A stretch of 64,000 bases of DNA. Source: Candidatus Latescibacterota bacterium. GTDB taxonomy: Bacteria; Latescibacterota; UBA2968. The stretch lies in the NCBI GenBank assembly GCA_022821275.1, contig JAJEDY010000004.1, positions 1 to 64,000 on the forward strand, read 5' to 3'. Shown here piece after piece: positions 31,268 through 55,290 of this stretch. The notes beneath the pieces were generated by a model. It was given only the letters and a program-made list of their open reading frames with translations. It made no database searches and had not been told where the DNA came from. The translations under genes and the position numbers were made by a program. How positions within the stretch are numbered: the stretch's first letter is position 1; every line of letters begins with the position of its first letter.

Positions 31268-31483
31268 TTTTTTTCGTTGAACTGCTGACACTGCTATGTA
31301 TGAATAACCCGCCTTCACACACCGCTTCAGACTCCATACGGATCATTGTACATGGTTTTGAGTTGCAACAGATTGTGGTTTACCGTATTCTTTCCACGAT
31401 CCCTGCGGCTGTTGTCGTTAAACTTTACAAGCGATCAGCAGTTAGCGGTCAATCTATTTGCTGCATGTGGTGGAGGTATTGGT

Positions 31484-32914: not shown

Positions 32915-32919
32915 GGTTC

Positions 32920-33498
32920 GTGAGTGATATTGAAATATTACAAGAAATGCTCATATCCGCGGTGCAGGTTCCGTTGCAACAAGGGCAAGGTAGGCCCTCT
33001 GTCGAACTGACAGACAAGCAGGGTGACACGACTGTTGAAATCAAAGGGCTACCTCATGATTCAATTGTTATTAGAGCGGAAGATTTTGAAGATCCCCTTA
33101 CTATCTTTGAGGGATCAAAGGGTGAACGCAAGCGGGCTGATTTCGTAATTGTATCCAATGAGAATTCGAAAAAGTGGATTATCTATATTGAGACTCAAGC
33201 GGGGAACTATAAATTGGCAGCACATGTTGAAGAACAACTGAAAGGCGCACAATGCTTTATGAGTTACTGCAAATGTATAGGAAGGTCATTCTGGGAAGGG
33301 GAAGAATTTCTTGGTGGCTATCAGTACCGGTTTGTAAGCATAGTGGATATTAACAGTAACAAGGAAACAAAAAAGACACGTCCTTACGCTCCCCATATTC
33401 AGTCTAAAGGGAGATTGCACGACGCCCCTGACGCTTTTCTGAAAATTTTACGGAGTCCGAGTCTTCATTTTCGCAAGTTGATTTTTGAGGCATCCTGA
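32920..33498 (+). CDS. Small partner protein with possible nuclease motif
   Basis: A 192-aa protein starting with GTG at 32920, which has GGAG 8 nt upstream and lies 5 bp after the ATPase. I do not recognise a named family. Residues 70-95 read ERKRADFVIV..WIIYIETQAG. A beta-strand Asp74 followed 17 residues later by E91-T-Q93 on another predicted strand resembles a degenerate PD-(D/E)XK core (D..ExQ). A C-terminal basic region follows. Nuclease activity is inference. Its partner ATPase and the cassette borders make an effector role plausible. Confidence 0.7.
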   Translation: MSDIEILQEMLISAVQVPLQQGQGRPSVELTDKQGDTTVEIKGLPHDSIVIRAEDFEDPLTIFEGSKGERKRADFVIVSNENSKKWIIYIETQAGNYKLAAHVEEQLKGAQCFMSYCKCIGRSFWEGEEFLGGYQYRFVSIVDINSNKETKKTRPYAPHIQSKGRLHDAPDAFLKILRSPSLHFRKLIFEAS

Positions 33499-39648: not shown

Positions 39649-39704
39649 TGGGTCTCCGGTTGGAATTAAAAATAAAAAATAACCACGCAAACCATAGAGA
39701 ATAC

Positions 39705-39744
39705 AGAGAAAAGCAGAGAAAAGCAAAGAAAAGTAGAGAAAAGC
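39705..39744 (+). repeat. Four tandem 10-bp AGAGAAAAGC-like units
   Basis: Four units with 10-bp period: AGAGAAAAGC, AGAGAAAAGC, AAAGAAAAGT, AGAGAAAAGC. They lie about 40 bp upstream of the sigma-54 promoter. The spacing of about one helical turn could suit an upstream binding site. Confidence 0.6.
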
Positions 39745-39782
39745 AACCAAATAAGAACACAAAGGGAGCTATTGTCCAAACT

Positions 39783-39799
39783 TTGGCACGGTATTTGCT
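39783..39799 (+). promoter_or_regulatory. Sigma-54 (RpoN) promoter of the triple-AAA+ operon
   Basis: TTGGCACG (39783-39790), four bases GTAT, TTGCT (39795-39799): a full match to the YTGGCACG-N4-TTGCW consensus. It lies 109 bp before the ATG at 39909 on the same strand. Activation would need an enhancer-binding protein; none is visible in the window. Confidence 0.75.
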
Positions 39800-39908
39800 T
39801 CAATTTTCGTTTGGAACACAGAGAACACAAAATGGGCGGTTGATTGCGTAACTTCAGACATTGAGATAAAGGAGAAAAATCGAATTAGGGAGAAGGGAGG
39901 TTCTACCT

Positions 39909-42797
39909 ATGAAATACCGTCGTAGGAGTCGCATCGCTATAAGGCATATAAATCACAGAACACGAGCGCGAAAGGAGTTTCTACCCATGATTGACAATGA
40001 AGACAGTCTATACATCAATGAATACAGCATGTACATAAACCGCATCTACATGCTGAACGCACTTGGCAAAGTAAAGCGGGATCGAAGGGTGCAAAAGGCA
40101 ATACACGACTGGATCAGACACTATACTGATCCACTGGAAACACTGGACCCTTCTCTCCAACAGGAGTACGACAGGATATTCGAACTGAAGAGAAAACGAG
40201 ATGACGATCGGCCAGAGCAAAACCAATTCTTCGAATACGCGATAAAAACGCTTAAAGGGAAAATACAACAGCAGCCCGCACCTTCCCGTGAAGAGATAGC
40301 AACCCGTCTCATTGTCCAGCGTTTTTCTTTGGGACCCGTGGCACACGCACTACTCACCCTGAGATGTTGTTATGACTGTGATTCTCTGACCGAAAGCTTG
40401 TGGGATGAATTCTCTGATATTCATGACCATTTCACAGCGACCGCGGCCTTGTTGGGTTGCGCGTGCGAAGACGTCAAGGATGCGTTCCGCGAACTGGCCG
40501 ATGCGGGCATCACTGACCTGGAAGGTCTGCGCTCTGCTAAACGCATTGCCCCCACCGACTACACACATAAATATTTTTCCCGCGTATGGCATCCGCCCGT
40601 ACGAGATATAGACGAATTGGTGGCGCGTCTGGTCGGTCAGCCCTGCGAAGCCACGCTGCACCTGAGCGACTTCGCATACCTCGAGGATCGAGATGAGGCC
40701 GTGCGCTTGCTTCGCGCAGCTACGCAAAAGCGACACAAAGACATATCTACGCCGGGGGTCAATATCCTGTTGGTCGGGCGGGCAGGCACTGGGAAAACCG
40801 AATTTGCCAAAACTCTATCACAGGCGGCTGGTACATCCCTCTTTTCCATCGGCGAGCCGAACCGGGAAGATAAGGAACCCTTCGACAGTGCAGCCGAGGC
40901 CGGCACCAGACGCCGCAACACCTTGCGCGTGGTTCAAGCCCTCTTGCGACCCGTTCTCGATGCTGCGATCTTGTGCGACGAAGCCGAGGATGTCCTGGAT
41001 TCCATCCGAGGCACCCGCCTTATCAACCATCGCCTGCTGGAAAATACCCCTGTACCGGTGATCTACACAGCCAATCGTCTGGATCACTTAGACGAAAGCA
41101 TGCTGCGGCGTTTTACCTATGTCCTCACGTTCAAAGCCCACAGCCCGACCCGCCAAACCGCAATTTTGCAACAGATGTTGGAAAAAAGCAATATCGAGGG
41201 CATTGATGCAGCCGCATGCGCGCGACGTCTTGTCGATCAACTCGAGTGTCCCCCAGCCATCCTGGCACAAGCTATCGAAACCACTCGCCTCATCGGTGGT
41301 GGCGAGCGTGACATCTACCACTTCAGCGAGCGGCTGGAACGCACCGTCGCCACACACTGCGCCCGTCCGCGCCTGGGACCTCCCATCGAGGCAGAGGTTC
41401 CGTGGGCGGCATTTTCGCACCTCGGACAAGACGCGGACGCTGTGCGAGATACCCTTGCCGCAGTGATAGAGAAAAAAGAGAAAGGGATCAATATCCTCCT
41501 GTACGGACCGCCGGGCACTGGGAAAACCGAGTTTGCACGCACGCTTTGCGGCGAGGTTGGCGCGCGTTTATACGCCATCGGGGAAAATGAAATCGGTCCA
41601 CAAGCACGCCCGAGTGCAGGCCGCACAGAGACATTGGATTATGCCCTCGAAGCCCTATCAGATGAACCTGATGCCGCGATTCTCTTCGATGAGATGGAAG
41701 ACTTTCGCCAGCCGCAAAAGCATTGGCTCAATCGCATTGTCGAAGTAAACCCGGTGCCCATTATCTGGACGTGTAACTCAATTGGCTACTACCGCATGTT
41801 TAAGTCGTTCTTCATCGACCGCATTCTATACGCCATCGAGTTCCGCCATATACCTGTTAGCAACCGAAAAACCGTTTATGCAGGCATCCTGCGTCAGGCG
41901 GGTATGACAGATATCGAGACCCATCAACTGGCCGAAGAACTGGCACACAAAAACACAGTAACGCCTCGCCATATCACTTTAGCGACGAAACAGGCTGTTC
42001 TCATGCGAGATCATTCTACCTGCGCGACAAAACACAAACTCAGTGAGACCATCAAGCGCAATATTGATCAAAAAGAAAGACTGCGCTATGGCATCCATTC
42101 TCCCGACATGTTGCCCATAGCACAATACGACCCGGCCCTCATCCACGCCGATCAGGATCTCCCAACATTGGTCGAGCGGATCGTCGCGCTTGACTCGCGC
42201 CAATTCTCACTCTGCTTGTCTGGTCCTCCCGGTACGGGCAAAACGGCTTTTGCGCGCTACATCGCCGAGCAGATGGGCATGGATGTGTTATGCAAACGGG
42301 CATCCGATCTTTTGGACAAATTCGTCGGAGAGACAGAGCAACAGATTGCATCGGCTTTTGCCGAGGCTCTTGAGAAGAACGCATTTCTGATCTTCGACGA
42401 AGTGGATTCGCTTCTTATGGACCGGCAATCTGCCCAACGCGGTTGGGAAGTGAGCATGGTCAACGAATTGCTCAGCCAGATGGAGCGGCACCCCCTCCCA
42501 TTTGTCTGCACCACGAACCGGGGAGACAGCCTCGACGAGGCTGCCGCACGCCGCTTCCTATTTCGCATCCAGTTTTACTTTTTGGATTACACGCGCATTA
42601 ACCGCGCCTTTGAATTGTTCTTCAACTGCGAAGCACCGTCTTCGGCACTTGCGCTGACCAAACTCACTCCCGCGGACTTTGCCAACGTGCGGAAGCGCGC
42701 AGAGGTCCTGGGCTTCATGGACGACCCTGAACAAATCGCACAGGCCCTCGCCGAAGAATGCCGCATAAAACCGGGCAACAACCCGACTGGCTTCTGA
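39909..42797 (+). CDS. Protein with three AAA+ ATPase modules
   Basis: A 962-aa protein. Its first 280 residues have no recognised domain. Three P-loops follow: GRAGTGKT (about 288), GPPGTGKT (about 531) and GPPGTGKT (about 770). They are paired with Walker B segments AAILCDEAEDVLDS, AAILFDEMEDF and FLIFDEVDSLL. The third module is the most complete, with an Arg-rich sensor segment (AAARRF) like Cdc48/FtsH-type ATPases. Two starts compete: ATG 39909 (GGGAGG, 8 nt) and ATG 39987 (AAAGGAG, 11 nt), with near-identical surroundings. The next genes follow within 40 bp. Triple AAA+ chains are rare in bacteria. Remodelling of a protein or nucleoprotein complex is likely, but the substrate is unknown. 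Confidence 0.88.
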   Translation: MKYRRRSRIAIRHINHRTRARKEFLPMIDNEDSLYINEYSMYINRIYMLNALGKVKRDRRVQKAIHDWIRHYTDPLETLDPSLQQEYDRIFELKRKRDDDRPEQNQFFEYAIKTLKGKIQQQPAPSREEIATRLIVQRFSLGPVAHALLTLRCCYDCDSLTESLWDEFSDIHDHFTATAALLGCACEDVKDAFRELADAGITDLEGLRSAKRIAPTDYTHKYFSRVWHPPVRDIDELVARLVGQPCEATLHLSDFAYLEDRDEAVRLLRAATQKRHKDISTPGVNILLVGRAGTGKTEFAKTLSQAAGTSLFSIGEPNREDKEPFDSAAEAGTRRRNTLRVVQALLRPVLDAAILCDEAEDVLDSIRGTRLINHRLLENTPVPVIYTANRLDHLDESMLRRFTYVLTFKAHSPTRQTAILQQMLEKSNIEGIDAAACARRLVDQLECPPAILAQAIETTRLIGGGERDIYHFSERLERTVATHCARPRLGPPIEAEVPWAAFSHLGQDADAVRDTLAAVIEKKEKGINILLYGPPGTGKTEFARTLCGEVGARLYAIGENEIGPQARPSAGRTETLDYALEALSDEPDAAILFDEMEDFRQPQKHWLNRIVEVNPVPIIWTCNSIGYYRMFKSFFIDRILYAIEFRHIPVSNRKTVYAGILRQAGMTDIETHQLAEELAHKNTVTPRHITLATKQAVLMRDHSTCATKHKLSETIKRNIDQKERLRYGIHSPDMLPIAQYDPALIHADQDLPTLVERIVALDSRQFSLCLSGPPGTGKTAFARYIAEQMGMDVLCKRASDLLDKFVGETEQQIASAFAEALEKNAFLIFDEVDSLLMDRQSAQRGWEVSMVNELLSQMERHPLPFVCTTNRGDSLDEAAARRFLFRIQFYFLDYTRINRAFELFFNCEAPSSALALTKLTPADFANVRKRAEVLGFMDDPEQIAQALAEECRIKPGNNPTGF

Positions 42798-42836
42798 ACA
42801 TTGCGAAAAATGGAATTTACTGGGAAAGGACATGTT

Positions 42837-43487
42837 ATGGATATTTTAGATATTTTTGATCGAGACGAGACTGGCCCTGCCATTGAAGACCTTACCAAAA
42901 TCATAAAGCTGAACCCGAATGATGCGGAAGCCTATAACAATCGCGGCAATGCTTACAGTGATAAAGGCGATCATGACCGGGCTATTGAGGACTTCACCAA
43001 AGCTATAGAACTGAACCCATACGATAAAATGCACTATCTCCTGCGTGGTTTTTGTTACGAATTTAAAGGCGAGAGTGCCCGGGCTATTGAAGACTACAGC
43101 GCGATTATGGAACTGAGCCCGGATAATCCTGATCCCTATTTCTATCGTGGCAAAATTTATAGGGATAAAGGCGCGTATGACTATGCTATTGAAGATTTCG
43201 ACAAGGCCATCGCGCTATACCCGGATTACACTATGGCCTATTACTACCGAGGGGAGACGTGGTTACGCATGGGCAGATGGAATAACGCCAGAGCAGACCT
43301 GATAGTTGTCAAGAGCAAGGGTATGGATATTATCAAGTGGTTTTGTGAAGATTACAAAAATGTTGAGGATTTTGAAGAAAAATATGATGTGAAGTTGCCA
43401 GAAGATATTGCAGTGATGCTGACGCCCAGAGCAGGCATAATCACGGACGGAATCAATAAGGAAAGGACATTTTTATGGATATTTTAA
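42837..43487 (+). CDS. Tetratricopeptide-repeat protein
   Basis: A 216-aa soluble protein with about four TPR units, for example AIEDLTKIIKLNPNDAEAYN, RAIEDFTKAIELNPYDKMHY and AIEDFDKAIALYPDYTMAYY. It has a short N-terminal MDILDIF and a C-terminal extension (about 145-216). AAAGGA lies before the ATG at 42837, and this initiation region nearly repeats that of the next gene. It is predicted to be an adaptor that binds proteins. It is the second gene of the operon. Confidence 0.85.
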   Translation: MDILDIFDRDETGPAIEDLTKIIKLNPNDAEAYNNRGNAYSDKGDHDRAIEDFTKAIELNPYDKMHYLLRGFCYEFKGESARAIEDYSAIMELSPDNPDPYFYRGKIYRDKGAYDYAIEDFDKAIALYPDYTMAYYYRGETWLRMGRWNNARADLIVVKSKGMDIIKWFCEDYKNVEDFEEKYDVKLPEDIAVMLTPRAGIITDGINKERTFLWIF

Positions 43488-44521
43488 CCGAATCAGGGCT
43501 ATCATCCCGCTTTCTCAGATATGATAATGAACATGATTGTGCGTTCATTTCGGCATATCGCACAGCACGAGATTGTGGGCAGGGCAAGAGATATACCAAA
43601 AGAGAAAATTTACAGCGAAGTACCAATTTGTTATATAAACTGATAAGCAGGCGTTATCGCGTAATATCGGTTTTGGGGCAATTCAGGGATGGCAGGCAGG
43701 ATTCTTCGGAGCGAACATTTTTTGTTCTCAATCAGCATGATAGTGAACAGTTTGCCGAGCATATCATCTCTTTTGGGGAAGATTTTGAGCAGGATGCTGT
43801 TCTGATTATTCCGAAAGGTGCGCTGCAGGGTGGGGGTAAGAGCCGGACGTATTATGCCCGTACGAATGCGTGTGAGAACAATTTTTTGCGACTGTTAAAT
43901 AAGGAGAAAAAGTTCTTTGGTCGGACGCTTATAAACAGAGAGATTAAAGCGTTTTTTTCTCGCGTTAGTGGCAGAGACGCCGGTTGTATAAAAAAGATAA
44001 AGGCTGTTACACAACACAGAGACGCCGGAAATATTATGGGTCTTGACTTTTTTCACCGACTGGGACAAGAAGATTGGGAAGAAACAGAAATTTGTTTATC
44101 CGGTTTTTCTCTTCAGGCTAAAAGAGAACCGCGTCGTGAGTTTTACATCCCATCTCAGGAGATTCCCGAATATGTTGCCTGTGACGACGATGTGAATGAC
44201 TTTATAGAAACGGTTATGGATGGATTTGGTGGGCGGGATAACCTGTATCGCCTGACGGGTGCAAAAGGTGAACGCTATGGTGTAGATTGGTATGGCAACT
44301 TCTGGATGTTGTTACCAATGGCACCGAGCGCAACGAATGGTGCATCTTCTTGCTATATTACGTATTACCAGGATGATGACGTTTACACGGTAAGGTTTCT
44401 AAGTGGCAGACTGGATAGACCAAATGATCTGATGGTTATTTCTGAGCACGTTGGTCTGGATATACACGCACTGAAACCCGTGTATCAGGAAGAAACAAAT
44501 TCGTACCTATCGTTTGACTGA
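43475..44521 (+). CDS. Uncharacterised protein, third gene of the triple-AAA+ operon
   Basis: A 348-aa protein that overlaps the TPR gene by 13 bp. AAAGGA lies ahead of the ATG and the first codons (MDIL) copy those of the TPR gene. Residues 20-110 show the pattern AFISAYR..NLQRSTNLLYKLISRRYRVISVLGQF..E..FFVLNQHDS..F..HIISFGEDFEQDAVLII. Similar patterns occur in some phage or plasmid orphan proteins, as I recall, but the family is not named here. The C-terminal half has no recognised motif. It could be the effector of the operon. Confidence 0.7.
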   Translation: MDILTESGLSSRFLRYDNEHDCAFISAYRTARDCGQGKRYTKRENLQRSTNLLYKLISRRYRVISVLGQFRDGRQDSSERTFFVLNQHDSEQFAEHIISFGEDFEQDAVLIIPKGALQGGGKSRTYYARTNACENNFLRLLNKEKKFFGRTLINREIKAFFSRVSGRDAGCIKKIKAVTQHRDAGNIMGLDFFHRLGQEDWEETEICLSGFSLQAKREPRREFYIPSQEIPEYVACDDDVNDFIETVMDGFGGRDNLYRLTGAKGERYGVDWYGNFWMLLPMAPSATNGASSCYITYYQDDDVYTVRFLSGRLDRPNDLMVISEHVGLDIHALKPVYQEETNSYLSFD

Positions 44522-44931
44522 GCGGATCCCGACAGGAATCGTTGTTATCTTCAACGACATGTAAAAAAATAAGGAGGAAAGCGTAACGGCAAAGGAACGG
44601 GATATAGTATCGGATAGTTTTTAGATGTAGAGGTTCTTTGAAATCAATAGGTTAGATGATGTCCCATGTTTTATTTGCAACTTAGACCTGTATCCTGAGT
44701 TTGACAAAAAACAGATAATTATATAACCCATTGTATTATAGATACTTAGGACTTTTGACTAATTGAGGTCCGATCAAAAAGTGTCCGAACCATTGATCTT
44801 GACATCTGTGATTTATTTTTTATACATTGGTCATCTGTTCATATTGATAAGGAAGATCGGCCTTTTTTCGGCTATCCGAGAACATTTACAGATCTATCTT
44901 TATTAGTTGACCAATACACGGGAGGCTTTGT
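44522..44931. other. Gap between the AAA+ operon and the DUF262 gene
   Basis: This 410-bp AT-rich stretch has no supported gene. It contains a strong sigma-70-type promoter (44799-44827) and a 100-nt leader. A weak TCGTTG/CAACGA hairpin near 44539-44557 lacks a T-run. Confidence 0.6.
44799..44827 (+). promoter_or_regulatory. Predicted sigma-70 promoter of the DUF262 gene
   Basis: Perfect TTGACA (44799-44804) followed after 16 bp by TATACA (44821-44826). The leader is about 100 nt. It makes the DUF262 gene independent of the sigma-54 operon upstream. Confidence 0.65.
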
Positions 44932-46863
44932 ATGTCCACCATTGAACACAATCTTGAATTACTCACATTGAAGCAGGTTTTTGCTGAGGGAAAAAGATCA
45001 TTCAGTATCCCTGACTATCAACGCGGATACTCCTGGGAGGAAGACCAACGTAAAGACTTACTCAAGGATATAGAATATGGCATGAACGGAGAACACAGCC
45101 ACTATACTGGCACATTGGTTGCAGTCAGGAAAGACTCAAAGGATAATGACCGATTGGAAGAATTCGAAATAGTAGATGGTCAACAGCGACTGACAACTCT
45201 GATAATTCTCTTGTCCTGCATCGCTCATGCCTGTAAACGAATGAACGCTCCAGAACCAGAGGATTTGAGACATTGCTTTATTGAACAGGAAACCGAGGAC
45301 AGAAAAAACATCCGTCGCAAATTTATCTTATCAGATGAACAGGACTCTCTGTTTAGGGAGAAGGTTGATGAACCCGACTCAGACTCCAGTGGAAAAGTTA
45401 AAAACAAGGGCGATCAAAACATTGTTGATGCATTTGATCAGTTTAAGAAATGGTTGCAAGGACCTGAAAATGGAACATCTCTTTCTGAAATCTATAAATA
45501 TGTTACAAACAAACTCGGATTTCTGATGTACGCTCCCGATGACAAAAGAGAAATAGGTATCATGTTCGAAGTGATCAATAACCGGGGAAAACCACTGAGT
45601 GAATTGGAAAAAGTTAAAAACTATCTTATATATTATTCAGAAAAGAATGACGTTCAGAAGTTAAAAGACGCCGTGAAGGACAAGTGGCCAGAAATATTAG
45701 GACACCTTAATAGCTGTAATCACACATCCAACGATGACGAAAATGGGTTCCTTCGCAACTGCTGGATCGTATTTCAGGACGCTAAGAAAAACAAAAGCTT
45801 CAACGTCTATGACAACTTGAAAGACCGGTTCCCTACCACAGGGAGCGATTGGGAGCAGCTCGAAGAGTTTGTCGAATTTCTCGACAAATCAGCGCATACT
45901 TATCGGAAACTTTACACAAGAGAAGGAGTAACTGAAGATAAAGAAAAAGAATGCCTGACTCGTCTTGGGCATCAACCTGTATTGGCATCCGTTCTTCCAT
46001 TGATTCTTGCAATATTTAACCGCGAAACTGAACCCTCAACCAGAGTGCCTTTATTGCAACTGATTGAAAAGCTCAACTTTCGATTCTACGGAACAGGTAT
46101 TGCCTCCCGGTCTGATTCCAAGCAGGGAGAACTTTTTAGGTTGGCTCACGATTTCTATAACCATCATCCAAAAACTCGTGATGATGTGCTGATCAATGCA
46201 TCATGGCTGGAAGAACGATTGCGCGAATTTGTAAATAATAATGCCAAAGACAAAAACCTGATCAAACATCTGACTTTAGATATAGATGAATCAGGAGACT
46301 ACTATCACTGGTCATGGCTGAAATACTTTCTGGCAAGTTATGAGGGAAATTTGGAACGCAAGGAGGGAAGTGGGGAAAAATTAGAGCAATATCTGGCTGA
46401 GAGAGATCCTCAACATCCCAATGACTTTTATCACTTAGAACACATCTGGGCTGTTGCAGATACTACAAAGAAAATTGAAGACAAAGGTAATAAAAGGCGC
46501 CTTGGAAATTTTATATTACTCAAAGAACGTGTAAACCAAAGCATGCAGGACAAACCACCTGAAGAAAAAGTAATAGCGTACTTTCGCAACATAGAGAACG
46601 CGCCGGATACGCGGATGATCCGAGAGTTGAAATGTTTATTCGATAAAGCGAAGGAAGAGATAGAGATAGAACGCGAACGTAAGACAAAGGGATATTGGTA
46701 CGAAGTCTATGCACGATTTCTCGATCTGCACGAGGAAAAATATGTGAATTTTGCGTTAGATCGGTGGCGGGTTGAGGGTATTAATAAACCAGTGAAAGAG
46801 GTTACTCTTAACAGCCTCTCGGGCAGTAATGAGATTTATAGACTGAAATATGAAGTTGAATAG
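44932..46863 (+). CDS. GmrSD-like DUF262/DUF1524 protein
   Basis: A 643-aa single-chain protein. Its N-terminal DUF262 domain (ParB/Srx-like) has SIPDYQRGYSWEEDQ (24-38) and EIVDGQQRLTTL (about 82-93). Its C-terminal DUF1524 HNH-like segment is HLEHIWAVAD...RLGNFILLKERVNQS, in which the His and both Asn of an HNH site remain but the usual HIxP proline is Trp-Ala. GmrSD and related type IV enzymes cleave modified (often glucosylated) phage DNA. GGGAGG lies 7 nt upstream. It has its own promoter and terminator. Confidence 0.88.
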   Translation: MSTIEHNLELLTLKQVFAEGKRSFSIPDYQRGYSWEEDQRKDLLKDIEYGMNGEHSHYTGTLVAVRKDSKDNDRLEEFEIVDGQQRLTTLIILLSCIAHACKRMNAPEPEDLRHCFIEQETEDRKNIRRKFILSDEQDSLFREKVDEPDSDSSGKVKNKGDQNIVDAFDQFKKWLQGPENGTSLSEIYKYVTNKLGFLMYAPDDKREIGIMFEVINNRGKPLSELEKVKNYLIYYSEKNDVQKLKDAVKDKWPEILGHLNSCNHTSNDDENGFLRNCWIVFQDAKKNKSFNVYDNLKDRFPTTGSDWEQLEEFVEFLDKSAHTYRKLYTREGVTEDKEKECLTRLGHQPVLASVLPLILAIFNRETEPSTRVPLLQLIEKLNFRFYGTGIASRSDSKQGELFRLAHDFYNHHPKTRDDVLINASWLEERLREFVNNNAKDKNLIKHLTLDIDESGDYYHWSWLKYFLASYEGNLERKEGSGEKLEQYLAERDPQHPNDFYHLEHIWAVADTTKKIEDKGNKRRLGNFILLKERVNQSMQDKPPEEKVIAYFRNIENAPDTRMIRELKCLFDKAKEEIEIERERKTKGYWYEVYARFLDLHEEKYVNFALDRWRVEGINKPVKEVTLNSLSGSNEIYRLKYEVE

Positions 46864-46884
46864 CGGTTTTAGAAATAGGAAGGC

Positions 46885-46925
46885 AAGAGCGGACAATTTA
46901 CTCTGAGATTGTCCGCTCTTTCTTG
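46885..46925 (+). terminator. Rho-independent terminator of the DUF262 gene
   Basis: Perfect 13-bp stem AAGAGCGGACAAT / ATTGTCCGCTCTT with a 10-nt loop, followed by T-rich DNA. It ends the transcript 22 bp after the stop. Confidence 0.9.
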
Positions 46926-47015
46926 TTTTAGCAGCAGTAAAGCAATTTGAAACCGCAGACTCAGTTGACCGCTAATGCCATTGTATTGGGCTTGATGATC
47001 AGGGCATGGCTGGCC

Positions 47016-47108
47016 TTATAGCGTTATATCGTACATGCGCTCCATTGAGGCACTGAGTTCGCGGTCCGGTTTTTCAAGTGGCATTTTAGCCGGGAAGGGT
47101 GTTTGCAT
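47016..47108 (-). pseudogene. 5' fossil of a GH43/GH117-like glycosidase gene
   Basis: 47025-47108 aligns with the 5' end of the intact gene at 50293-51507 (51424-51507), with about 90% identity. The remnant reads MQTPFPAKMPLEKPDREL then SASMERMYDI, against MPSPFPAKLPHEKPDREL in the intact gene. After 28 matching codons it runs into ITL and a stop (47016-47018). It lies between the DUF262 terminator and the DUF4276 gene. A partial duplication or an insertion that removed the rest is likely. Confidence 0.85.
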
Positions 47109-47168
47109 AGGGGCCTTGGTGAAGAGGTGATCGGTAGGGCTGACGCAGGCATCGGTATAGATGTCCGG

Positions 47169-47771
47169 TTACTCGGCTTTTGCCTTCAGAGTATCGACGA
47201 GTCGTTTCGCATGGGGCGATGCGGCAATCACTCTGTCGGGGGCAATCTGCGCGAGGATATCGAACGCATGTTGCCCCTTTTCATATTCTCCTTTCGAAAC
47301 ACCCGAACGGGTCGCGTTTTTTAGGCCGTTCAACACATCGTTTTTTGCGATGTTCTCAATATCCTGACGAGCGGGAAGCGTCCTCTGGTTAAAGCCGTTT
47401 CCATAGTACGCAACGAGACAGTCCTTGTCGGCAAGAAACCACGCCTCCATGCACTGCACCATCAGATGTACCTGGTCGTCCGTAGTGCCCGAGGGTTGGT
47501 CCCAATTATCGCGTGCTTTCAGGTGTTGCCAGGATCCCGTTGCCACGGAGTCTTCGCTGTCAACCAACAGCACGATGAAGTCATCTTTTTTTGCCCCGCG
47601 GACTGCTGCACGAAAATCATTGAAGGCATCTCGCCGACTACCACTTGCGACTACGCGCGGCATTTGGCCTTCCAGGCCAGCTTTGCTAAAAAATTTGCGG
47701 AAACCCTCGCGACACTTGCTCCTCAGTAAATTCGTTTCCCCGCCACCTTCCACAAAGACTTTGATGTTCAC
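47169..47771 (-). CDS. DUF4276 protein with TOPRIM-like motifs
   Basis: A 200-aa protein with the DUF4276 pattern: FVEGGGET (7-13, acidic Glu8 and Glu12), VASGSRRDAF, VLLVDSED (Asp71 and Asp74) and MVQCMEAWFLAD. An N-terminal Glu and a strand ending in DxxD fit a TOPRIM-like fold. It starts with GTG and overlaps the upstream ATPase gene by four bases. In OLD, GajA and PARIS systems a TOPRIM nuclease acts with an ABC-class ATPase. This pair looks like a split version. Confidence 0.85.
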   Translation of the reverse strand: MNIKVFVEGGGETNLLRSKCREGFRKFFSKAGLEGQMPRVVASGSRRDAFNDFRAAVRGAKKDDFIVLLVDSEDSVATGSWQHLKARDNWDQPSGTTDDQVHLMVQCMEAWFLADKDCLVAYYGNGFNQRTLPARQDIENIAKNDVLNGLKNATRSGVSKGEYEKGQHAFDILAQIAPDRVIAASPHAKRLVDTLKAKAE

Positions 47772-48949
47772 CAGCGATTCCCTCCCAGGTCACCTCTGGT
47801 CCACAGGTCCCCAAGGCTATAACGCTCCAACCACTCGGCAAGGTCGGTTTTGTCAAGTCGGTGCATTTCCGTCTTGCCGTCGTGCTTTTCGCAGACTACG
47901 ACGCTCTCCGGTGTATCGGTCAAGGTGTCCACGAGCATGCCGGAGTGCGTTGTGACAATAAGCTGGCACTTTTGCGATGCCTCGCGCAACAGGTCGCTGA
48001 GGACTGGCAGAACGTCGGGATGCAGGCCCAGTTCCGGTTCGTCAATACAGACCAGTGGTGGGGGATTCGGGTGGCAAAGGATAGCCAACAGGCACAGAAA
48101 GCGCAGCGTACCATCAGATAATCGCGTTGCCGGAACTATGATATTTCCTTCCTGGACGAAGACTTGAACCGTTCCGCCTTCAATGCTGATATCCAGGTCA
48201 ATCACGCCCTCGTAGAGTTGGCGCATGGTTTCCAATATGCGATCTTTGACTTTTGGCTCCCGCTTCAACCGATTCAGCACCAGTCCCAGATTTCTTCCGT
48301 CTTCGAGCAAAAAGTCATTGGGCAGATCTGCTGGTTGTGGCTGACGCGGCGGCGTGCGGCGACCAAAGGAACTCTCGCGGTAGAGTCGCATGCGGTCAAA
48401 TGTTTCGCCAAGCCATGTCAGTTCCGGGTATTGATTCGGGTCCTTCCGCTGGGCAAGAATGGATTGCTGCAGATCGATCTGTTCTTGGATTAACGGACGT
48501 CGCGTTTCACCATTGTTGTGCGACTCACCACTGTAGTTCAGAAGGGCACTATCGCCGATCAACTCGTAATAGGTATAGGGATTTGTCTCAGAGTTGTATG
48601 CCTCTTTGTTTTCTAGCAACTCTTCTGTCAACTCGAATAGCTGGCCCCTCTCGGCGAATCCGAGGCAATATCGCAGTGCCGATCCCTTTGGGTTATCCAG
48701 AATCACTTCGATATGGGCTGGCGATGCTTGGGGATCTCCTCGCCAAATCCAGTCGTGGATGCCACCACCTTCCCGAATTGGGACCGTGAGGTCTCTGGGT
48801 GTGGCTTTCAGCAGGCCAATCGCCTCTATAAGATTGGACTTTCCGGAGCCGTTGGGGCCGATAAGAACATTCAGGGGACGAAGTTCCAGTGCTTCGGTGT
48901 CAGGCCCGAAGGAGAGCAGATTTTTTAGTTTGATGTGCTCTATAAACAT
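47768..48949 (-). CDS. OLD-like AAA ATPase paired with DUF4276
   Basis: A 393-aa ABC-class ATPase. Walker A GPNGSGKS (31-38), a QPADLPNDFLLEDGRNLG linker, ATRLSDGTLRFLCLL signature, Walker B LVCIDEPELGLHPDVLPVL and VTTHSGMLVDTL. It has no C-terminal TOPRIM; that role passes to the neighbour. A promoter just upstream (48987-49014) and AGGAC at 6 nt support the ATG at 48949. The 61-residue upstream extension contains that promoter and is excluded. An anti-phage role is likely by analogy with split OLD-type modules. Confidence 0.88.
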   Translation of the reverse strand: MFIEHIKLKNLLSFGPDTEALELRPLNVLIGPNGSGKSNLIEAIGLLKATPRDLTVPIREGGGIHDWIWRGDPQASPAHIEVILDNPKGSALRYCLGFAERGQLFELTEELLENKEAYNSETNPYTYYELIGDSALLNYSGESHNNGETRRPLIQEQIDLQQSILAQRKDPNQYPELTWLGETFDRMRLYRESSFGRRTPPRQPQPADLPNDFLLEDGRNLGLVLNRLKREPKVKDRILETMRQLYEGVIDLDISIEGGTVQVFVQEGNIIVPATRLSDGTLRFLCLLAILCHPNPPPLVCIDEPELGLHPDVLPVLSDLLREASQKCQLIVTTHSGMLVDTLTDTPESVVVCEKHDGKTEMHRLDKTDLAEWLERYSLGDLWTRGDLGGNRW

Positions 48950-48986
48950 GTCTCGTCCTTGTACATCAGCATATTCTTGCATGCGA

Positions 48987-49014
48987 ATTAATAACACGCG
49001 ATGCTCAGGTGTCA
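48987..49014 (-). promoter_or_regulatory. Predicted sigma-70 promoter of the ATPase-DUF4276 operon
   Basis: On the minus strand TTGACA (49009-49014), 16 bp, TATTAA (48987-48992), about 40 bp before the ATG at 48949. Confidence 0.6.
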
Positions 49015-49219
49015 AGAGAATACCGCGAATAGATATGCGAGTATTCGTGATGCCTTCTAAAATATCTACATCTAAATCGCCGTCAAAATCTCCTGCATGA
49101 AAGACAGAAGGCGTTATATCTATCTGCGACAAATCCGATCATCCATGACCATAAATATTGTCCTTCCCAGGACTTCCCATGTCAACCGTAGCCTCAAACA
49201 ATGGGATCTCCTATAAGGT

Positions 49220-50296
49220 TTATTTGGCGGGCGCGATGAAGATTTTGTCGCCTTCCTTACACCCAAGTGTCTTTGAGGCGTTTTCGTAGTTGCGGGCAAT
49301 CCTCAAGCGGCCTTCCGCTGTCAGGAATGCAACCCACTCTCCCCGTGGTACGTCTCCATAGGTGGTGGCAAGCAATACTGTGAACGTCTGCGCCCCATAG
49401 CTGACCTGAAAACGGGTTTTGGGAGAGATACCAAGTTGCTGCAGGTCGCCCTCGATAAATTCGGTGTTGATGTTGCCGTAGGTCGAGGAGAGACTCTCTA
49501 TCTTTGTGTAAGCCCCACCGTCCTTAAATTCAGCAGACGACACATGATCCGGAGCGATGGTCGCATCTTTGTCTCGTTCTATCGTGCCGGTGTCCAGATA
49601 GGCGTCGAGCGCACGCAACGCGGTTTCCCGTTCGATCTCTCTGAGGTTAACGTGTCCGTCGCGTGCCACAGACCAGAATACTGGCACACTCGGTGCCTTT
49701 GCCGCTTTCTGGATATACGCCTGGGGTCCCTTCGCTTCACTCTGGTTACTGACGAAGAGCAACGGGAGACGTGGGGTATAACGCCATTCGTGGGGGTGCT
49801 CTGCATCTCGCACTTGCAGTGCCGCTCCCAACGCGAGCAAGCCGTCATAACCTTCGGGAGCGGTCTCGGCGATCAGTGTCACGATCGCACCACCCATTGA
49901 GCTACCCTGTACAAGTACGCGTTCAGGCGCGCCATAAGTTTGGACAATGTGCTGGCGTAGCAGTTCGATGTCCGCTACCGCATCGACGACGATCGCTCCG
50001 TTGCGGCGGTAGCTGGTAGATGCGATCATCCAACCATCGGCAAGCAAATGCTGGTACGTGGGTGACTCTGTGCGAAATTCGGCGCTCAAGGGCGCATTTT
50101 CGGGGCGATAGCCATGAGCCAGCAGCAGGAGTTTCCCGTTCCAGGATTCCGGTACGGCGATGACGAATTTTGATTGCTGGAGTTGACCTTCTTCGGTGCG
50201 AAACTCAACTGCCTCTGCGGCTGGGACGAGCAGTCCGCCGATGAGCAGGAAACAGCACATCCCTTGCACGAGTGTTGAACGGTAGATCGTTTTCAT
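49220..50296 (-). CDS. Secreted alpha/beta hydrolase with SAM_HAT_C-like tail
   Basis: A 358-aa protein. The N-terminal signal peptide covers about 1-29 (GMCCFLLIGGLLVPAAEA). The hydrolase core has LLLLAHGYRPENAP (oxyanion), nucleophile G-S-S133-M-G in VLVQGSSMGG, and DGHVNL (catalytic His about 221). The last 90 residues (GNINTEFIEGDL to RGEWVAFLTAEGRLRIARNYENASKTLGCKEGDKIFI) match the C-terminal domain of SAM-hydroxide adenosyltransferases. The fusion is unusual. The gene overlaps the glycosidase gene by 4 bp and ends the operon. It is probably an esterase that deacylates a glycan. Confidence 0.85.
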   Translation of the reverse strand: MKTIYRSTLVQGMCCFLLIGGLLVPAAEAVEFRTEEGQLQQSKFVIAVPESWNGKLLLLAHGYRPENAPLSAEFRTESPTYQHLLADGWMIASTSYRRNGAIVVDAVADIELLRQHIVQTYGAPERVLVQGSSMGGAIVTLIAETAPEGYDGLLALGAALQVRDAEHPHEWRYTPRLPLLFVSNQSEAKGPQAYIQKAAKAPSVPVFWSVARDGHVNLREIERETALRALDAYLDTGTIERDKDATIAPDHVSSAEFKDGGAYTKIESLSSTYGNINTEFIEGDLQQLGISPKTRFQVSYGAQTFTVLLATTYGDVPRGEWVAFLTAEGRLRIARNYENASKTLGCKEGDKIFIAPAK

Positions 50297-51507
50297 GATG
50301 GCTCCTTGAAGGTTCCAATGGTGTTTTGGTCGGTATCATTCTGTTCTTTGAGGATTTGCTTTTGGAGGTATTCGGGCAATTTGAGGACCCGCTGGAAGTA
50401 GGTGGGTTCGTCAAAGCGCAGGTTGTTGTTTTTGAAGAGGGGACGGTCAATGTCGCGGCTGAGGTCGCAGTCGAATCGGGCGAGGACGGATTCGCTCATG
50501 CTGCCCCCGCCGTCCGGGTTGATGTGGCACAGTCCCCAGGTGATACCGCGGCCGTCGCCGTTGTCGGCAAATGCGTCGGGTACAAAGGGTCCGGGCGCGA
50601 CGGGGGGTACCTGGAGCAGGGATTTCATTTCGAAATGGAGGCCGTCGGGCGCGTATTGCACGGTGTTTTTTTCGGGTCCGTCCAGGCTGACGATTGCGGC
50701 GATGCCTTCTTTGTAGGGCCAGAGACAGGTTTCGTGGCCGGAGTTGAGGACGGGGTTTAGCGGTGATTTTTTGTATGGTCCTTCCGGACGGTCGGCTATG
50801 GCAACGCCCTGGGCGCGGATGATGTTTGCGCCGCCGCGTTTTTGACCGGGGGAGCCTTTGTAATACATATAGACTTTGCCTTTGTAGATGAGGGGGAAGG
50901 GGTCGTGTACGCAGTTGCAATCCCAGTCGTCGGGTCCGCCGGGTTCCACAATGGGTCTGCCCAGTCGCGTCCAGGGTCCATGGGGAGAATTGGCGATGGC
51001 GATGGTGACGGGGCACGAGTCGCCGCCCTGAATGACTTCGCTGTATGCCTGGTGGTAGAGGTAGTATTTGTTTTTCCAGACGAGGATGTCGGGGGTGCAG
51101 TTTGACCGCCAGCCAAATTCGCCTTTTGGTGGGCGCGTGGCGGCTGGTCCCCGTTCTTCCCAGTGAAAGCCGTCTTCGCTGGTGGCATACCAGATGTCTG
51201 CGAGGTCCCAATCGACAGAGGGGATGTCGTCGGTGGCGTTTTCGTGTCCGACGGGTGGGCCTTTTGTGCGTCGGCATGTGTACCAGACGTAATAGGTGCC
51301 GTCGATGCGGAGTACTTTGGATGGGTCGCGGCGAGAGACGTTGGGTTCTCGGGGGAAGCCTTCGAGGGGTGAGTATTTGAAGTTGCTGAAGAATTCATTG
51401 CTGCGATCTTCATGGGGATTCCATATATCGTACATGCGTTCCATTGAGGCGCTGAGTTCGCGGTCCGGTTTTTCATGTGGCAGTTTAGCGGGGAAGGGTG
51501 ATGGCAT
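50293..51507 (-). CDS. Five-bladed beta-propeller glycosidase (GH43/GH117-like)
   Basis: A 404-aa protein with SRRDPSKVLRIDGTYYVWYT, SNCTPDILVWKNKYYLYHQA and CVHDPFPLIYKGKVYMYY segments. Repeated DP-x-x-x pattern strands and tryptophan blades match GH43/GH62/GH117 propellers. The RRDPS..YYVWYT form resembles GH117 anhydro-galactosidases, which act on agar oligosaccharides. No signal peptide is seen, so the enzyme would act in the cytoplasm. It overlaps the upstream sulfatase by 23 bp; AGAGG at 7 nt supports the start. A duplicated fossil of its 5' end lies at 47016-47108. Confidence 0.82.
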   Translation of the reverse strand: MPSPFPAKLPHEKPDRELSASMERMYDIWNPHEDRSNEFFSNFKYSPLEGFPREPNVSRRDPSKVLRIDGTYYVWYTCRRTKGPPVGHENATDDIPSVDWDLADIWYATSEDGFHWEERGPAATRPPKGEFGWRSNCTPDILVWKNKYYLYHQAYSEVIQGGDSCPVTIAIANSPHGPWTRLGRPIVEPGGPDDWDCNCVHDPFPLIYKGKVYMYYKGSPGQKRGGANIIRAQGVAIADRPEGPYKKSPLNPVLNSGHETCLWPYKEGIAAIVSLDGPEKNTVQYAPDGLHFEMKSLLQVPPVAPGPFVPDAFADNGDGRGITWGLCHINPDGGGSMSESVLARFDCDLSRDIDRPLFKNNNLRFDEPTYFQRVLKLPEYLQKQILKEQNDTDQNTIGTFKEPS

Positions 51508-53047
51508 GGGTGTTCCTCTGGTGATAGATGTCCAGCAGTTTTTCGGATAGGGATTCGATGAGGTGGCTGTGTTGTTCCGATGCGATGAGGTTCTGGCGTT
51601 CGTCTTCTGTGGGGTTGTCTTTTAAGTTGAAGAGGGCGTGGTGTTTTAATTTGCCTTCTGTAATGAGTTCTTGTCCGACGATCAGTTTCCAATCGCCATC
51701 TCGCAGCGAGAGCATGGGTCCCATGATGTAGTCGTCGTGGAGGACGAGGGGATGGGGTTCAAATTCGTCGTCTTTCAGGCCGGTGAGAAAGGGCGCGATG
51801 CTGGTGCTGTCTTCGGCAAATCCCGCGCGTGAGGGTGTTTCGATGCCGACGAGGTCTGCAATGGATAAGATGAGGTCGTTGAGTCCATACGTGATGTGGC
51901 TTGTGCGCCCGGGTGTCGCGTCGTTGCCGTCGCCGATGTTGCCCTGTTTCCAGAAGGCGATGGTGGGTACGCGATGGCCGCCTTCGTGGATGTGGGCTTT
52001 GCGACCGCGGTAGTAGCCGCTGGATTCCTTGCCCGCGTTTTCCGCGCCGTTGTCGCTGGAGAAGATGAAGAGGGTGTTGTCGATGAGTTTATGGCCCGGG
52101 TTGCGCGGGTCGTCGTGGGTTTCGAGGTAGGTGAGCAATTGGCCGACTGCGACATCGTTTTCGTATATGAAGTCGAGGCGTTCGGGCGTGTTGTGCTCGC
52201 AGCCGCCGACCTGGTCGCGCTGTTTGCCCCATTCGGTGCTTTCCCAGCCATTGGGGTCGTTGGTGGTTGCGTGTGGGCGCGAGAGTTCGCGCTTGCCGTT
52301 TTTGAAGTGTGCCTGTCCCGCGACGGGTACGCCGTTGAGGGCGTCGCACGGCGTGTGGGGCGTGTGATTGGAATTGGCGGCGTAGTAGAGGAAGAAGGGT
52401 TGTTGTTTTGTGTCGTCTGTGTCCAGATGATCATCGAGAAAGCCGACGGCGTGCTGGAAGTTCATCGGTCCGGTTTTGTACAGGTCGTAACCCGCGATGT
52501 CGTGAGGGCTTTTGCCGGTTGCGCCGATGCAGCGGCGGTTTTCGATCCAGCCCGCATTGGCAGAGGTTCCATGGCTTCGGTTGGTGATGAAGTGGTAGGC
52601 AAAGCCGTGTTCTTCAGGGCAGTCGGTCAGGGGTTGGCGCACGTCTGCGTCGTCCCATCCCTCGGCGGGTGAGCCGTCGGATTTTGTGTATGTCAGGCCC
52701 ACGTGCCATTTTCCCGAGATGCCCGTGCGATAGCCGGCTTCTTTGAGGATGGTGGCGAGTGTGGGGCGTTCTTTTTCTATGAGGGGCGGATAGTGGGGAC
52801 CAAAGGCGACTTTGTGTTTGAGTTGCGTGCGCCAGCAATAGCGTCCGGTGAGGAGGGCATAGCGCGTGGGGGTGCATACGGTTGACGGTGTGTGGGCATC
52901 GGTAAAGCGCACGCCCAGGCGCGCGAGGCGTTTTAGGCTGGGGGTGTGGAGTTGTTCGTCGTCGCGGTTGCCGGTCCAGTCCTGATACGCGCTGGTGTCG
53001 CCCGTGCCCATGTCATCGACGAGGAATATGATGATGTTGGGGTGCAT
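51485..53047 (-). CDS. Cys-type sulfatase
   Basis: A 520-aa type I sulfatase. FLVDDMGTGDTS supplies metal ligands, the formylglycine motif is C58-T-P-T-R62 followed by LLTGRYCWRTQL, with GKWHVG, FFLYYAANSNHTPH and FSSDNGAEN. Start at 53047 has AAGGAG 5 nt upstream; a 36-residue extension is excluded. It is 8 bp after the GH2 gene and overlaps the glycosidase. It probably desulfates a GH43/GH117 substrate. Confidence 0.94.
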   Translation of the reverse strand: MHPNIIIFLVDDMGTGDTSAYQDWTGNRDDEQLHTPSLKRLARLGVRFTDAHTPSTVCTPTRYALLTGRYCWRTQLKHKVAFGPHYPPLIEKERPTLATILKEAGYRTGISGKWHVGLTYTKSDGSPAEGWDDADVRQPLTDCPEEHGFAYHFITNRSHGTSANAGWIENRRCIGATGKSPHDIAGYDLYKTGPMNFQHAVGFLDDHLDTDDTKQQPFFLYYAANSNHTPHTPCDALNGVPVAGQAHFKNGKRELSRPHATTNDPNGWESTEWGKQRDQVGGCEHNTPERLDFIYENDVAVGQLLTYLETHDDPRNPGHKLIDNTLFIFSSDNGAENAGKESSGYYRGRKAHIHEGGHRVPTIAFWKQGNIGDGNDATPGRTSHITYGLNDLILSIADLVGIETPSRAGFAEDSTSIAPFLTGLKDDEFEPHPLVLHDDYIMGPMLSLRDGDWKLIVGQELITEGKLKHHALFNLKDNPTEDERQNLIASEQHSHLIESLSEKLLDIYHQRNTHAITLPR

Positions 53048-53055
53048 GTGTCTCC

Positions 53056-55290
53056 TTATTTCATGTCGAGGAGTTGGATGCTGAGATAAGAGGGTCTTTG
53101 AGAGGGTAAGAGGATGGCGCAGATTGTGTTTTTGCCAGGAGTCAGGACGTCGCATTCGTCGGGATGGAGCAGGGCGCAGGTTTCCGAGATAGGTGCGGTG
53201 TGTTGCCTGACGCGGAGGCTGCGGATGAGTTGGCCGTTGATGAAGATCTGGCAGTCGGCAGATGAGGTGACGTAGAATAGGGGTTTATCGAGGCGTTGAT
53301 TCAGGTCGATGGTGGTGCGGAGATAAATGGGGGCGTCCGATGTGGTTCCTTCTGTTGTGCCAAATGGGCCTTTGTCCGCGTTATAGGATGCATCGTCGAA
53401 GTGGGTTTGACACCAGTCGCCGCCGCAGTTTGGCAGGTTGGCGCGGGGCGAGGTGTGTATGGCGGGGAGAGGGGATACGTCGCCCGTGCTGTATCGCCAT
53501 TCGGTGCGGGGACCGATGATGGTTTCAAATTGCGGGGGATCCCAGAGTGTGGCGTGGATGTTGCCGAGTTCGTCGGGGGCGATTTTGGAGATTTTGCGGT
53601 CGTAGGTGAGCCAGCCGTTGAGTTCGTGTTCGACGTCGGTGATCTGGGTATATACGATGCCGTTGAGGGGCGTGAGGCCGACCATTGCGCGGAGGTTTTC
53701 GATCCAGAAGCGATAGTCGTCTTCCATCGCTTGAGGCGTCGGATATGTGGGGCGGGTGATGTCGTTGATGTGGTCGATGTGTTCGGATGGTTCTTCGTGG
53801 TCGTACCAGGTGTGTCCCGGGATGCAGAGGTTGAATCCGCCCGCTTCGCCGAGGAGGACGATGCGGTCATTGGCGCTTTGTTGTTGCGCTGTGGCCGGGT
53901 AGAAGGTGTAGTCGTGTATATCGCAGATGTCGCCCGTGCCCATGTCGGCCCAGCCACTGGCACTGGTGACGAGGCGCGAGGGGTCGCGTTGTGCGACGTG
54001 GTCTGTGAGGCGTTCGGTGTCGTGTTGGCCCCAGCCTTCGTTGAAGATGATCCACTGGACAACACTGGGATGGTTGTGCAGCCAGTCCATGATGTTGTCA
54101 AATTCGGTTTGCCATTGTTGTGCGGCTTCGGGGGTGACGTTTTGTCCGAATTTGGGCATGCAGACCATGTCTTGCCAGACCAATAGGCCGAGCCGGTCGC
54201 AGTGATAGTACCAGCGGTCGGGATGGGTTTTGACGTGTACGCGCACCATGTTGCAGGCGATTTGTTTCAGGTACTGGAGGTCGAAGAGGATGGCTTCGTC
54301 AGATGGCGGGGTGAGGATGCCGTCGGGCCAATAGCCCTGGTCCAGGGGACCGAGCTGAAAGATGGGTTTGTCGTTGAGGTGAAAGCGTTTGATGCCGTTT
54401 TCGTCTTCGCCGATAGCTATTTTTCGCATGCCAAAGTAGCTGTCAATGGTGTCGATGGTCTCGCCGTTGTGCTGTACTCTGACTTTGAGGTCGTAGAGGA
54501 AGGGGTGGTCTGGATGCCAGAGTTTTGCGTTTGGGATGTCGAGAGAGATGGTGTGGCCGGCCCGTCCGGTTGTTTCGGCTATTTGCTGGTTGCCGTCATA
54601 GGCGATTGTTTGAATTTGGCAATTCTCTAAGTTTTCGCCTGAGACAACAATATTTAGTTTTTCGTTGTCTATGTCGGGTGTGAGACGAAGGGTGCGGATG
54701 GATTGCTCTGGTACGGCTTCGAGCCAGACGGTTTGCCAGATGCCGCCGGTGGGTTGATACCGAAATCCCTGGCGGTTTTCCGGCATGATTTGTTTGCCAA
54801 GGGCCTGCGGCTGTTGCTCGGTGGCGTCCCAGCAGGAGACGATGAGTTCGTTCGTGCCGTCTGTTAAATGGTCGGTGATGTCAAAGGTGAAGGGGTCGTA
54901 TCCGCCTCGGTGTTGTCCCGCTTTTTCGCCGTTGATATAGACGCTGGTTTCCCAGTCGGATGCCTGGAAATGGAGGAGTACGCGTTTGCCCGCCCATGCG
55001 TCGGGGACGGTAATATTTCGGCGATACCAGAGACGCTGGTTCGGGCGGAGGATTTCCATGATGCCCGAGAGAGGGGCGTCGATGGCAAAGGGGACGAGGA
55101 TTTGACCCTGCCAGGCAGTAGGTGCGCTGGTGGTGCCGATGGGTTCGAGGGCGTAGTCCCACAAGCCGTTGAGGTTTTGCCATTGTTGGCGCACCATTTG
55201 AGGGCGCGGGTGTTCTGGCAGGGCGTTGTCGGGGGAGACGTTTTCCGCAAAAGGCGTTGAGATGTGTTTGGTCACGGGGGTCCAGGTCAT
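53056..55290 (-). CDS. GH2 family beta-galactosidase/glucuronidase-type enzyme
   Basis: A 744-aa glycoside hydrolase with sugar-binding, immunoglobulin and TIM-barrel domains in order. The acid/base Glu418 is in VQWIIFNEGWGQ and the nucleophile Glu482 is in VLLGEAGGF. The N-terminal LRPNQRLWYRR and GGYDPFTFDITDHL are GH2 signatures. A C-terminal domain with LPSQRPSYLSIQLL follows. No secretion signal. It is 3 bp from the PhyH-HEAT gene. Substrate cannot be given. Confidence 0.93.
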   Translation of the reverse strand: MTWTPVTKHISTPFAENVSPDNALPEHPRPQMVRQQWQNLNGLWDYALEPIGTTSAPTAWQGQILVPFAIDAPLSGIMEILRPNQRLWYRRNITVPDAWAGKRVLLHFQASDWETSVYINGEKAGQHRGGYDPFTFDITDHLTDGTNELIVSCWDATEQQPQALGKQIMPENRQGFRYQPTGGIWQTVWLEAVPEQSIRTLRLTPDIDNEKLNIVVSGENLENCQIQTIAYDGNQQIAETTGRAGHTISLDIPNAKLWHPDHPFLYDLKVRVQHNGETIDTIDSYFGMRKIAIGEDENGIKRFHLNDKPIFQLGPLDQGYWPDGILTPPSDEAILFDLQYLKQIACNMVRVHVKTHPDRWYYHCDRLGLLVWQDMVCMPKFGQNVTPEAAQQWQTEFDNIMDWLHNHPSVVQWIIFNEGWGQHDTERLTDHVAQRDPSRLVTSASGWADMGTGDICDIHDYTFYPATAQQQSANDRIVLLGEAGGFNLCIPGHTWYDHEEPSEHIDHINDITRPTYPTPQAMEDDYRFWIENLRAMVGLTPLNGIVYTQITDVEHELNGWLTYDRKISKIAPDELGNIHATLWDPPQFETIIGPRTEWRYSTGDVSPLPAIHTSPRANLPNCGGDWCQTHFDDASYNADKGPFGTTEGTTSDAPIYLRTTIDLNQRLDKPLFYVTSSADCQIFINGQLIRSLRVRQHTAPISETCALLHPDECDVLTPGKNTICAILLPSQRPSYLSIQLLDMK

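Follow-up and report, generated by a model that had tools for sequence, protein, structure and literature searches.

The locus considered here raises the question of whether an ABC-class ATPase gene and the DUF4276 gene that follows it form a split unit of the OLD or PARIS type, and whether such a unit constitutes, as the initial annotation proposed, a separate branch of TOPRIM-based defence. Both genes lie on the minus strand of the window, which is the whole stretch of 64,000 nucleotides that was analysed. The ATPase gene (47768..48949, with its ATG at 48949 and its stop at 47768) encodes 393 amino acids, and the DUF4276 gene (47169..47771, with a GTG start at 47771) encodes a 200-amino acid protein which is predicted to be a TOPRIM-type nuclease; Pfam matches them to AAA_21 at 127 bits and to DUF4276 at 91 bits respectively, both far over the cut-off. 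The two are separate open reading frames, in the window as well as in the relatives that were read, and the four-base overlap between them that had been claimed is present: stop and start share exactly the bases GTGA at 47768..47771 on the minus strand, which suggests that translation of the ATPase and of the DUF4276 protein is coupled. The earlier upstream limit of 49014 is not retained, since the in-frame extension which it adds ahead of the ATG lacks conservation; in sister genomes it contains a stop and an indel of 8 bases. Starts of the ATPase at the upstream TTG at 49132 or near 49014 were rejected because this extension is broken in the sister genomes. A TTGACA sequence 5' of the ATPase is conserved in five genomes; since the promoter scan left it unscored, no promoter is claimed there.

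The pair has already been catalogued, because both of its proteins match models of the candidate system HEC-01 of PADLOC (PADLOC-DB 2.0.0) over their full length. The ATPase matches the HEC-01A model PDLC04177 at 584 bits (residues 1-393 of 393), the DUF4276 protein matches the HEC-01B model PDLC04201 at 264 bits (residues 2-198), and a HEC-01B match is found in all of the aligned DUF4276 relatives (59/59); judged by these sequence matches, the pair is a further member of HEC-01. The HEC names, as cited in PMC11411939, come from a 2024 preprint by Payne et al. on genes that lie within Hma and other clusters of defence genes, and HEC-01 is already included in genome surveys (PMC12724379). DUF4276 is named in no paper of the open-access literature searched, and the mechanism of HEC-01 is, as far as could be found, so far undescribed. 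The proposal of a separate branch survives in part: the TOPRIM-type appearance and the conserved, defence-associated character of the unit stand, while the idea that the branch was undescribed falls to the PADLOC entry and to PMC12839542. What is new in the present work is the reading of the fold and catalytic residues of DUF4276, the argument from genomic context, and the repeated insertion into BREX operons. The reading favoured here, to which a probability of roughly 0.74 is assigned, is that the pair is an anti-phage module of the HEC-01 type, OLD-like but split, in which a TOPRIM nuclease is gated by a separately encoded ATPase.

The two genes form a conserved unit. A GTDB genome scan returned 224 relatives, the best 80 of which were fetched; these come from Latescibacterota, Pseudomonadota, Chloroflexota, Acidobacteriota, Planctomycetota, Nitrospirota, Gemmatimonadota and other groups. 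The pair is not dispersed in other genomes, a prospect which the initial annotation had raised against its own proposal: the ATPase gene lies directly upstream of DUF4276 in 79 of these best 80 relatives, and the sole locus without an adjacent ATPase is cut by a contig end. The identical four-base overlap recurs in 59 of the 79, with overlaps of 7 or 1 bases in most of the others, and the distance matrices of the ATPase and of DUF4276 correlate (Mantel r 0.70, with 0 of 2000 permutations as high); the pairing is therefore not a matter of chance. The same layout is found in other DUF4276 subfamilies of the window's phylum, at essentially all of the loci seen there. Within this phylum DUF4276 occurs in 31 of 64 genomes, at 0-12 copies per genome. 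A single genome can hold several subfamilies, as in the two phylum genomes with 12 (G038) and 11 (G046) matches.

The assignment of DUF4276 to the TOPRIM class rests on predicted structure and residue mapping, because homology to OLD, AriB or RloB is not seen at the level of profile HMMs. The AlphaFold2 model of the protein (59 sequences; pLDDT 96.5, pTM 0.92) is composed of a strand at 2-7, a helix at 14-33, a strand at 39-42, a helix at 46-58, a strand at 64-71, a helix at 80-88, a strand at 101-104, a helix at 108-123, and a helical tail which extends to 199. The elements alternate as b-a-b-a-b-(a)-b-a and are followed by the helical tail, an arrangement shown by TOPRIM domains that are joined to a helical domain. 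When the model is compared with the PDB using Foldseek, ranks 1 and 2 are taken by the C-terminal region of the Xanthomonas (Xcc) OLD protein (6njv and 6njx), with probabilities of 0.84 and 0.75 and full-length TM-scores of 0.50 and 0.48, at E-values of 0.11-0.16, which are not significant, and an rmsd of about 7 A. Nearly all of the other PDB matches listed have probabilities below 0.25, and AriB is absent among those listed; taken alone, the match of the predicted fold to OLD is suggestive. A Foldseek comparison with viral models gave no match, nor did a DUF4276 profile HMM run against PDB sequences. The profile comparison with TOPRIM and AriB that the initial annotation had suggested was made by aligning DUF4276 subfamilies with RloB, DUF4435/AriB and OLD TOPRIM profiles in hhalign; it gave no significant link and hence no detectable homology, while the predicted structure and the residue mapping favour TOPRIM. 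This null result is a weak negative, because the profiles are thin and even some DUF4276 subfamilies are barely linked to one another by them.

The residue mapping takes as its reference the two-metal site of the B. pseudomallei OLD protein (BpOLD), which consists of E400, D455 and D457 at metal A, E404, T506 and E508 at metal B, and K562 (PMC6755086). In the DUF4276 protein, E8 follows strand 1 within the sequence VEG, D71 ends strand 3 with E73 two positions on, E109 stands at the start of the helix behind strand 4, and K165 belongs to the helical tail; these five line up with E400, D455, D457, E508 and K562. The spacings from the first Glu to the Asp, from the second acid to the next Glu, and from that Glu to the Lys are 63, 36 and 56 in DUF4276 and 55, 51 and 54 in BpOLD. 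The N-terminal Glu to which attention had been drawn is thus E8, and it is invariant. The DxxD strand described along with it needs correction: the conserved motif is D-x-E, so that the E, D-x-D pattern of OLD metal A is present as E8, D71 and E73 with its second Asp replaced by Glu. Among 60 aligned DUF4276 sequences, E8, D71, E73 and E109 are conserved in 60/60 and K165 in 59/60, and other DUF4276 subfamilies likewise contain motifs of the VEG-like, D-x-(D/E/Y) and E-x-(W/L) kinds. On the predicted fold the acidic residues E8, D71, E73 and E109 do not fall off the TOPRIM framework, as they might have done, but map to the BpOLD site. Sequence order and predicted secondary structure indicate that these four and K165 would gather in one site, and DUF4276 is likely to be a TOPRIM-type domain.

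It might be supposed that this domain is a catalytically dead TOPRIM-like adaptor and that the ATPase acts alone, as reported for the class 1 OLD protein ybjD of E. coli, whose Toprim domain is dispensable according to PMC13261556. The remaining metal B positions would suit such a loss, since the position of E12, which corresponds to E404, holds an acidic residue in only 38/60 sequences (63%), and the T506 equivalent, C107 in the window protein, is mostly Cys or Val across the 60. The near-complete conservation of the other five residues is, however, difficult to account for unless the residues take part in catalysis or bind metal, and a dead adaptor is judged unlikely.

The ATPase carries the complete set of ABC motifs, namely Walker A (GPNGSGKSN), signature (LSDGT), Walker B (CIDEPE) and H-loop (TTHS). 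Across 43 sequences G31-N39 (one position at 90%), L277-T281, E304-P305-E306 and T334-S336 are invariant, and Walker B takes the form (D/E)EPE. At the C-terminus there is a nearly invariant GGNRW, which the model leaves disordered (pLDDT 34 in the last block) and which is possibly a docking tail. The model as a whole has a pLDDT of 87, and Foldseek retrieves the heads of Rad50, SMC and PtuA first, a result which is not diagnostic of AriA or OLD. A phylogeny of the kind proposed in the initial annotation was computed with AriA from DUF4435 loci, RloA from RloB loci, and OLD loci, all from the same phylum. It groups HEC-01A with other DUF4276-linked ATPases, outside the sampled AriA and OLD clades, and places the AriA rows in a starred clade of their own away from HEC-01A and the RloA rows in a separate clade; the deep forks are weak (66/95), and no sister lineage for HEC-01A is given.

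These results bear on the possibility that the pair is PARIS proper, that is, a divergent AriA/AriB which senses Ocr-like anti-restriction proteins and cuts tRNA. PARIS likewise has two genes, one for an ABC ATPase and one for a TOPRIM protein, the AriA model PDLC02980 matches the ATPase at 120 bits, and embedding in BREX would suit a sensor of anti-restriction (PMC12839542). Against this, PDLC02980 appears to be a generic AAA_21 model, with the same length and match region as PF13304; the DUF4276 protein has no Pfam match to DUF4435; AriB is missing from the PDB matches listed for its model; and the AriA clade is distinct, albeit above weak deep forks. The pair is not assigned to PARIS, because its nuclease is not DUF4435 and its ATPase lies outside the AriA clade, and identity with PARIS is accordingly considered improbable. 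Of the original description of the locus as split and OLD/PARIS-like, the split layout and, for the predicted fold, the likeness to OLD are supported, while membership in PARIS proper is not.

In the window the pair lies in a short cassette within a lineage-specific island. The island (39673..49206, about 9.5 kb) is absent from six sister genomes, in which the flanks are contiguous and the hydrolase gene (49220-50296) is followed directly by the sulfatase gene (38245-39762). It contains a triple-AAA protein, a TPR protein, a SAM-lyase-like protein, a GmrSD-type gene and the HEC-01 pair. The pair and its short flanks form a 2-kb cassette (47025..49029, minus strand) which in sister genomes is present, decayed, absent, or elsewhere in the same operon. 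In four of the sister genomes (G029, G030, G031 and G033) the pair lies instead between the sulfatase gene at 51485-53155 and a 404-aa gene; the same site holds a decayed remnant of the pair in G037 and is empty in G032 and G034. At the end of the cassette, an 87-base direct repeat (47025-47111) matches the start of the 404-aa gene (51424-51510) at 91%, and this copy is probably the scar of a relocation from the other site. Such variation within a genus, from intact copies to decayed remnants, empty sites and relocated copies, is typical of defence modules. The GmrSD/DUF262-DUF1524 type IV restriction-like protein (44932-46863, plus strand; HEC-06-like, 176 bits) is convergent with the pair, and the window copy of the pair is not in a BREX operon.

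Other genes in the window deserve mention in their own right. Inside the island, a 348-aa protein (43475-44521, plus strand) matches Pfam S-AdoMet_lyase at 33 bits, over the cut-off; this family is known from phage anti-restriction. At the island edge, a 962-aa protein (39909-42797, plus strand) has three AAA+ domains, the last of which is IetA-like (110 bits). A second OLD-ABC ATPase (31346-32914) and a 199-aa partner (32899-33498), both on the plus strand, overlap by 16 bases; in PADLOC the ATPase matches PDC-M47A at 655 bits and PD-T4-4_A at 502 bits, and the partner, which has no Pfam match and contains a PD-(D/E)xK-looking stretch (RADFVIV...YIETQ), matches PDC-M47B at 193 bits.

At 10 of 79 loci among the relatives the pair interrupts a BREX operon, with brxC on one side and pglX on the other, and where these loci were read further PglZ, BrxH and BrxA lie in the same operon. 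In one Comamonadaceae genome the order is brxC, ATPase, DUF4276, pglXI, a second HEC-01A-like ATPase, brxH, pglZ and brxA, with stop/start overlaps at most joints. A second ATPase of this type (locus L150, 8291-9514, minus strand) matches a different HEC-01A model at 144 bits and shares the BREX operon of the first pair. The insertion occurs also in the isolates Pseudochelatococcus lubricantis DSM 103870 and Dechloromonas sp. H13; in P. lubricantis brxC, the pair, a pglXI-type gene, pglZ and brxA form one operon-like run, with two open reading frames lacking PADLOC matches between the pair and pglXI. On the DUF4276 tree five changes of BREX label are needed, four of them forced by starred branches, so that BREX embedding has been gained (or lost) repeatedly. 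Other relatives adjoin a DndH-like gene, a type IIG restriction-methylase, an MmeI-like gene or a PD-Lambda-5 methylase. In two Desulfobulbaceae (L053 and L055) the pair directly follows a HerA/DndH-like ATPase and is itself followed by a 282-aa protein that matches no family.

This distribution must be weighed against a role in repair or chromosome maintenance, in which the TOPRIM protein would have no nuclease activity and the pair no part in defence. RecF (ABC) and RecR (TOPRIM) are a non-nuclease precedent for such a pair, and the ATPase head resembles Rad50 and SMC. An archaeal OLD-family protein, moreover, is a cell-cycle factor (PMC12796447). The patchy occurrence and varying copy number of DUF4276, the turnover of the pair within a genus, its position in an island beside GmrSD, its insertion inside BREX operons, and the retention of two-metal-type residues all speak against this reading, which is regarded as having a small chance of being correct. 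Similarly improbable is a pair of the toxin-antitoxin type that serves mainly to maintain itself and in which the ATPase is the neutralizer: the coupled layout, the resemblance of a nuclease-restraining ATPase to an antitoxin and the mention of a putative type IV toxin in the Pfam AAA_21 entry are set against the lack of an AbiEi/AbiEii nucleotidyltransferase match in Pfam, the lack of any relative of the window DUF4276 in phage or plasmid records (tblastn) and a BREX embedding which points to defence. In mechanism this reading overlaps with that of an OLD-like defence module, against which the lack of phage and plasmid relatives counts as well.

For the ATPase-gated OLD-like module, the following mechanism may be proposed. 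In OLD and GajA the ATPase domain gates the nuclease. AriA gates AriB (PMC12409363). By analogy, the HEC-01A ATPase would sense infection, hold the separate small TOPRIM nuclease in check, and then license it. The two proteins may form a complex, as the gene overlap hints, with the disordered GGNRW tail as a possible dock, and the ATP state together with a phage trigger would switch the nuclease on. In the nuclease, E8, D71 and E73 would serve metal A, and E109 and K165 would serve metal B and catalysis; the activated enzyme would cut nucleic acid, either DNA or, like AriB, tRNA, and so stop the infected cell. In BREX operons the pair may act as a second line, possibly triggered on BREX inhibition. 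A more far-reaching proposal is that the DUF4276 pairs make up a third lineage of ATPase-gated TOPRIM nucleases, beside PARIS and RloAB/AbiL, which was split independently, and that they are a BREX guard with its own trigger and target which fires when phage proteins disable BREX; this is put forward tentatively, as a conjecture that is doubtful at present. DUF4276 is a large family to which no function has been assigned, and the TOPRIM nuclease prediction with its candidate residues makes HEC-01 directly testable, while the repeated brxC-pglX insertion, which includes isolates, does the same for the BREX guard hypothesis.

Compared with known systems, the pair resembles RloA/RloB and AbiL in its two-gene combination of ABC ATPase and small TOPRIM-like protein, and the FExW...YxK spacing of RloB looks similar by eye; it differs in that it has no RloB (PF13707) match and in that RloA forms a separate clade. 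As in PARIS (AriA/AriB, class 4 OLD), the ABC ATPase and the TOPRIM-type protein come from separate genes of one operon, whereas the nuclease here is DUF4276 in place of DUF4435. No UvrD-like GajB or helicase is present in the window flanks of the pair, and no recurrent helicase neighbour was recognised in the neighbour clusters of the relatives. With class 2 OLD and the GajA of Gabija it shares an ABC ATPase with a TOPRIM plus helical domain, in which E, D-x-D/E, E and K correspond, and the OLD C-terminal region is the best PDB fold match of DUF4276; in OLD classes 1-3 and GajA, by contrast, ATPase and TOPRIM are fused, and sequence similarity between the nucleases is undetectable. A survey (PMC12839542), whose searchable text does not name DUF4276, describes TOPRIM-linked OLD-ABC modules or operons in BREX and proposes them as backup effectors; the BREX embedding found here agrees with it and involves the same type of pair. 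The closest correspondence is with HEC-01, from which the pair shows no difference in architecture and with which it shares the full-length match of both proteins, the same gene order, and the embedding in other defence operons.
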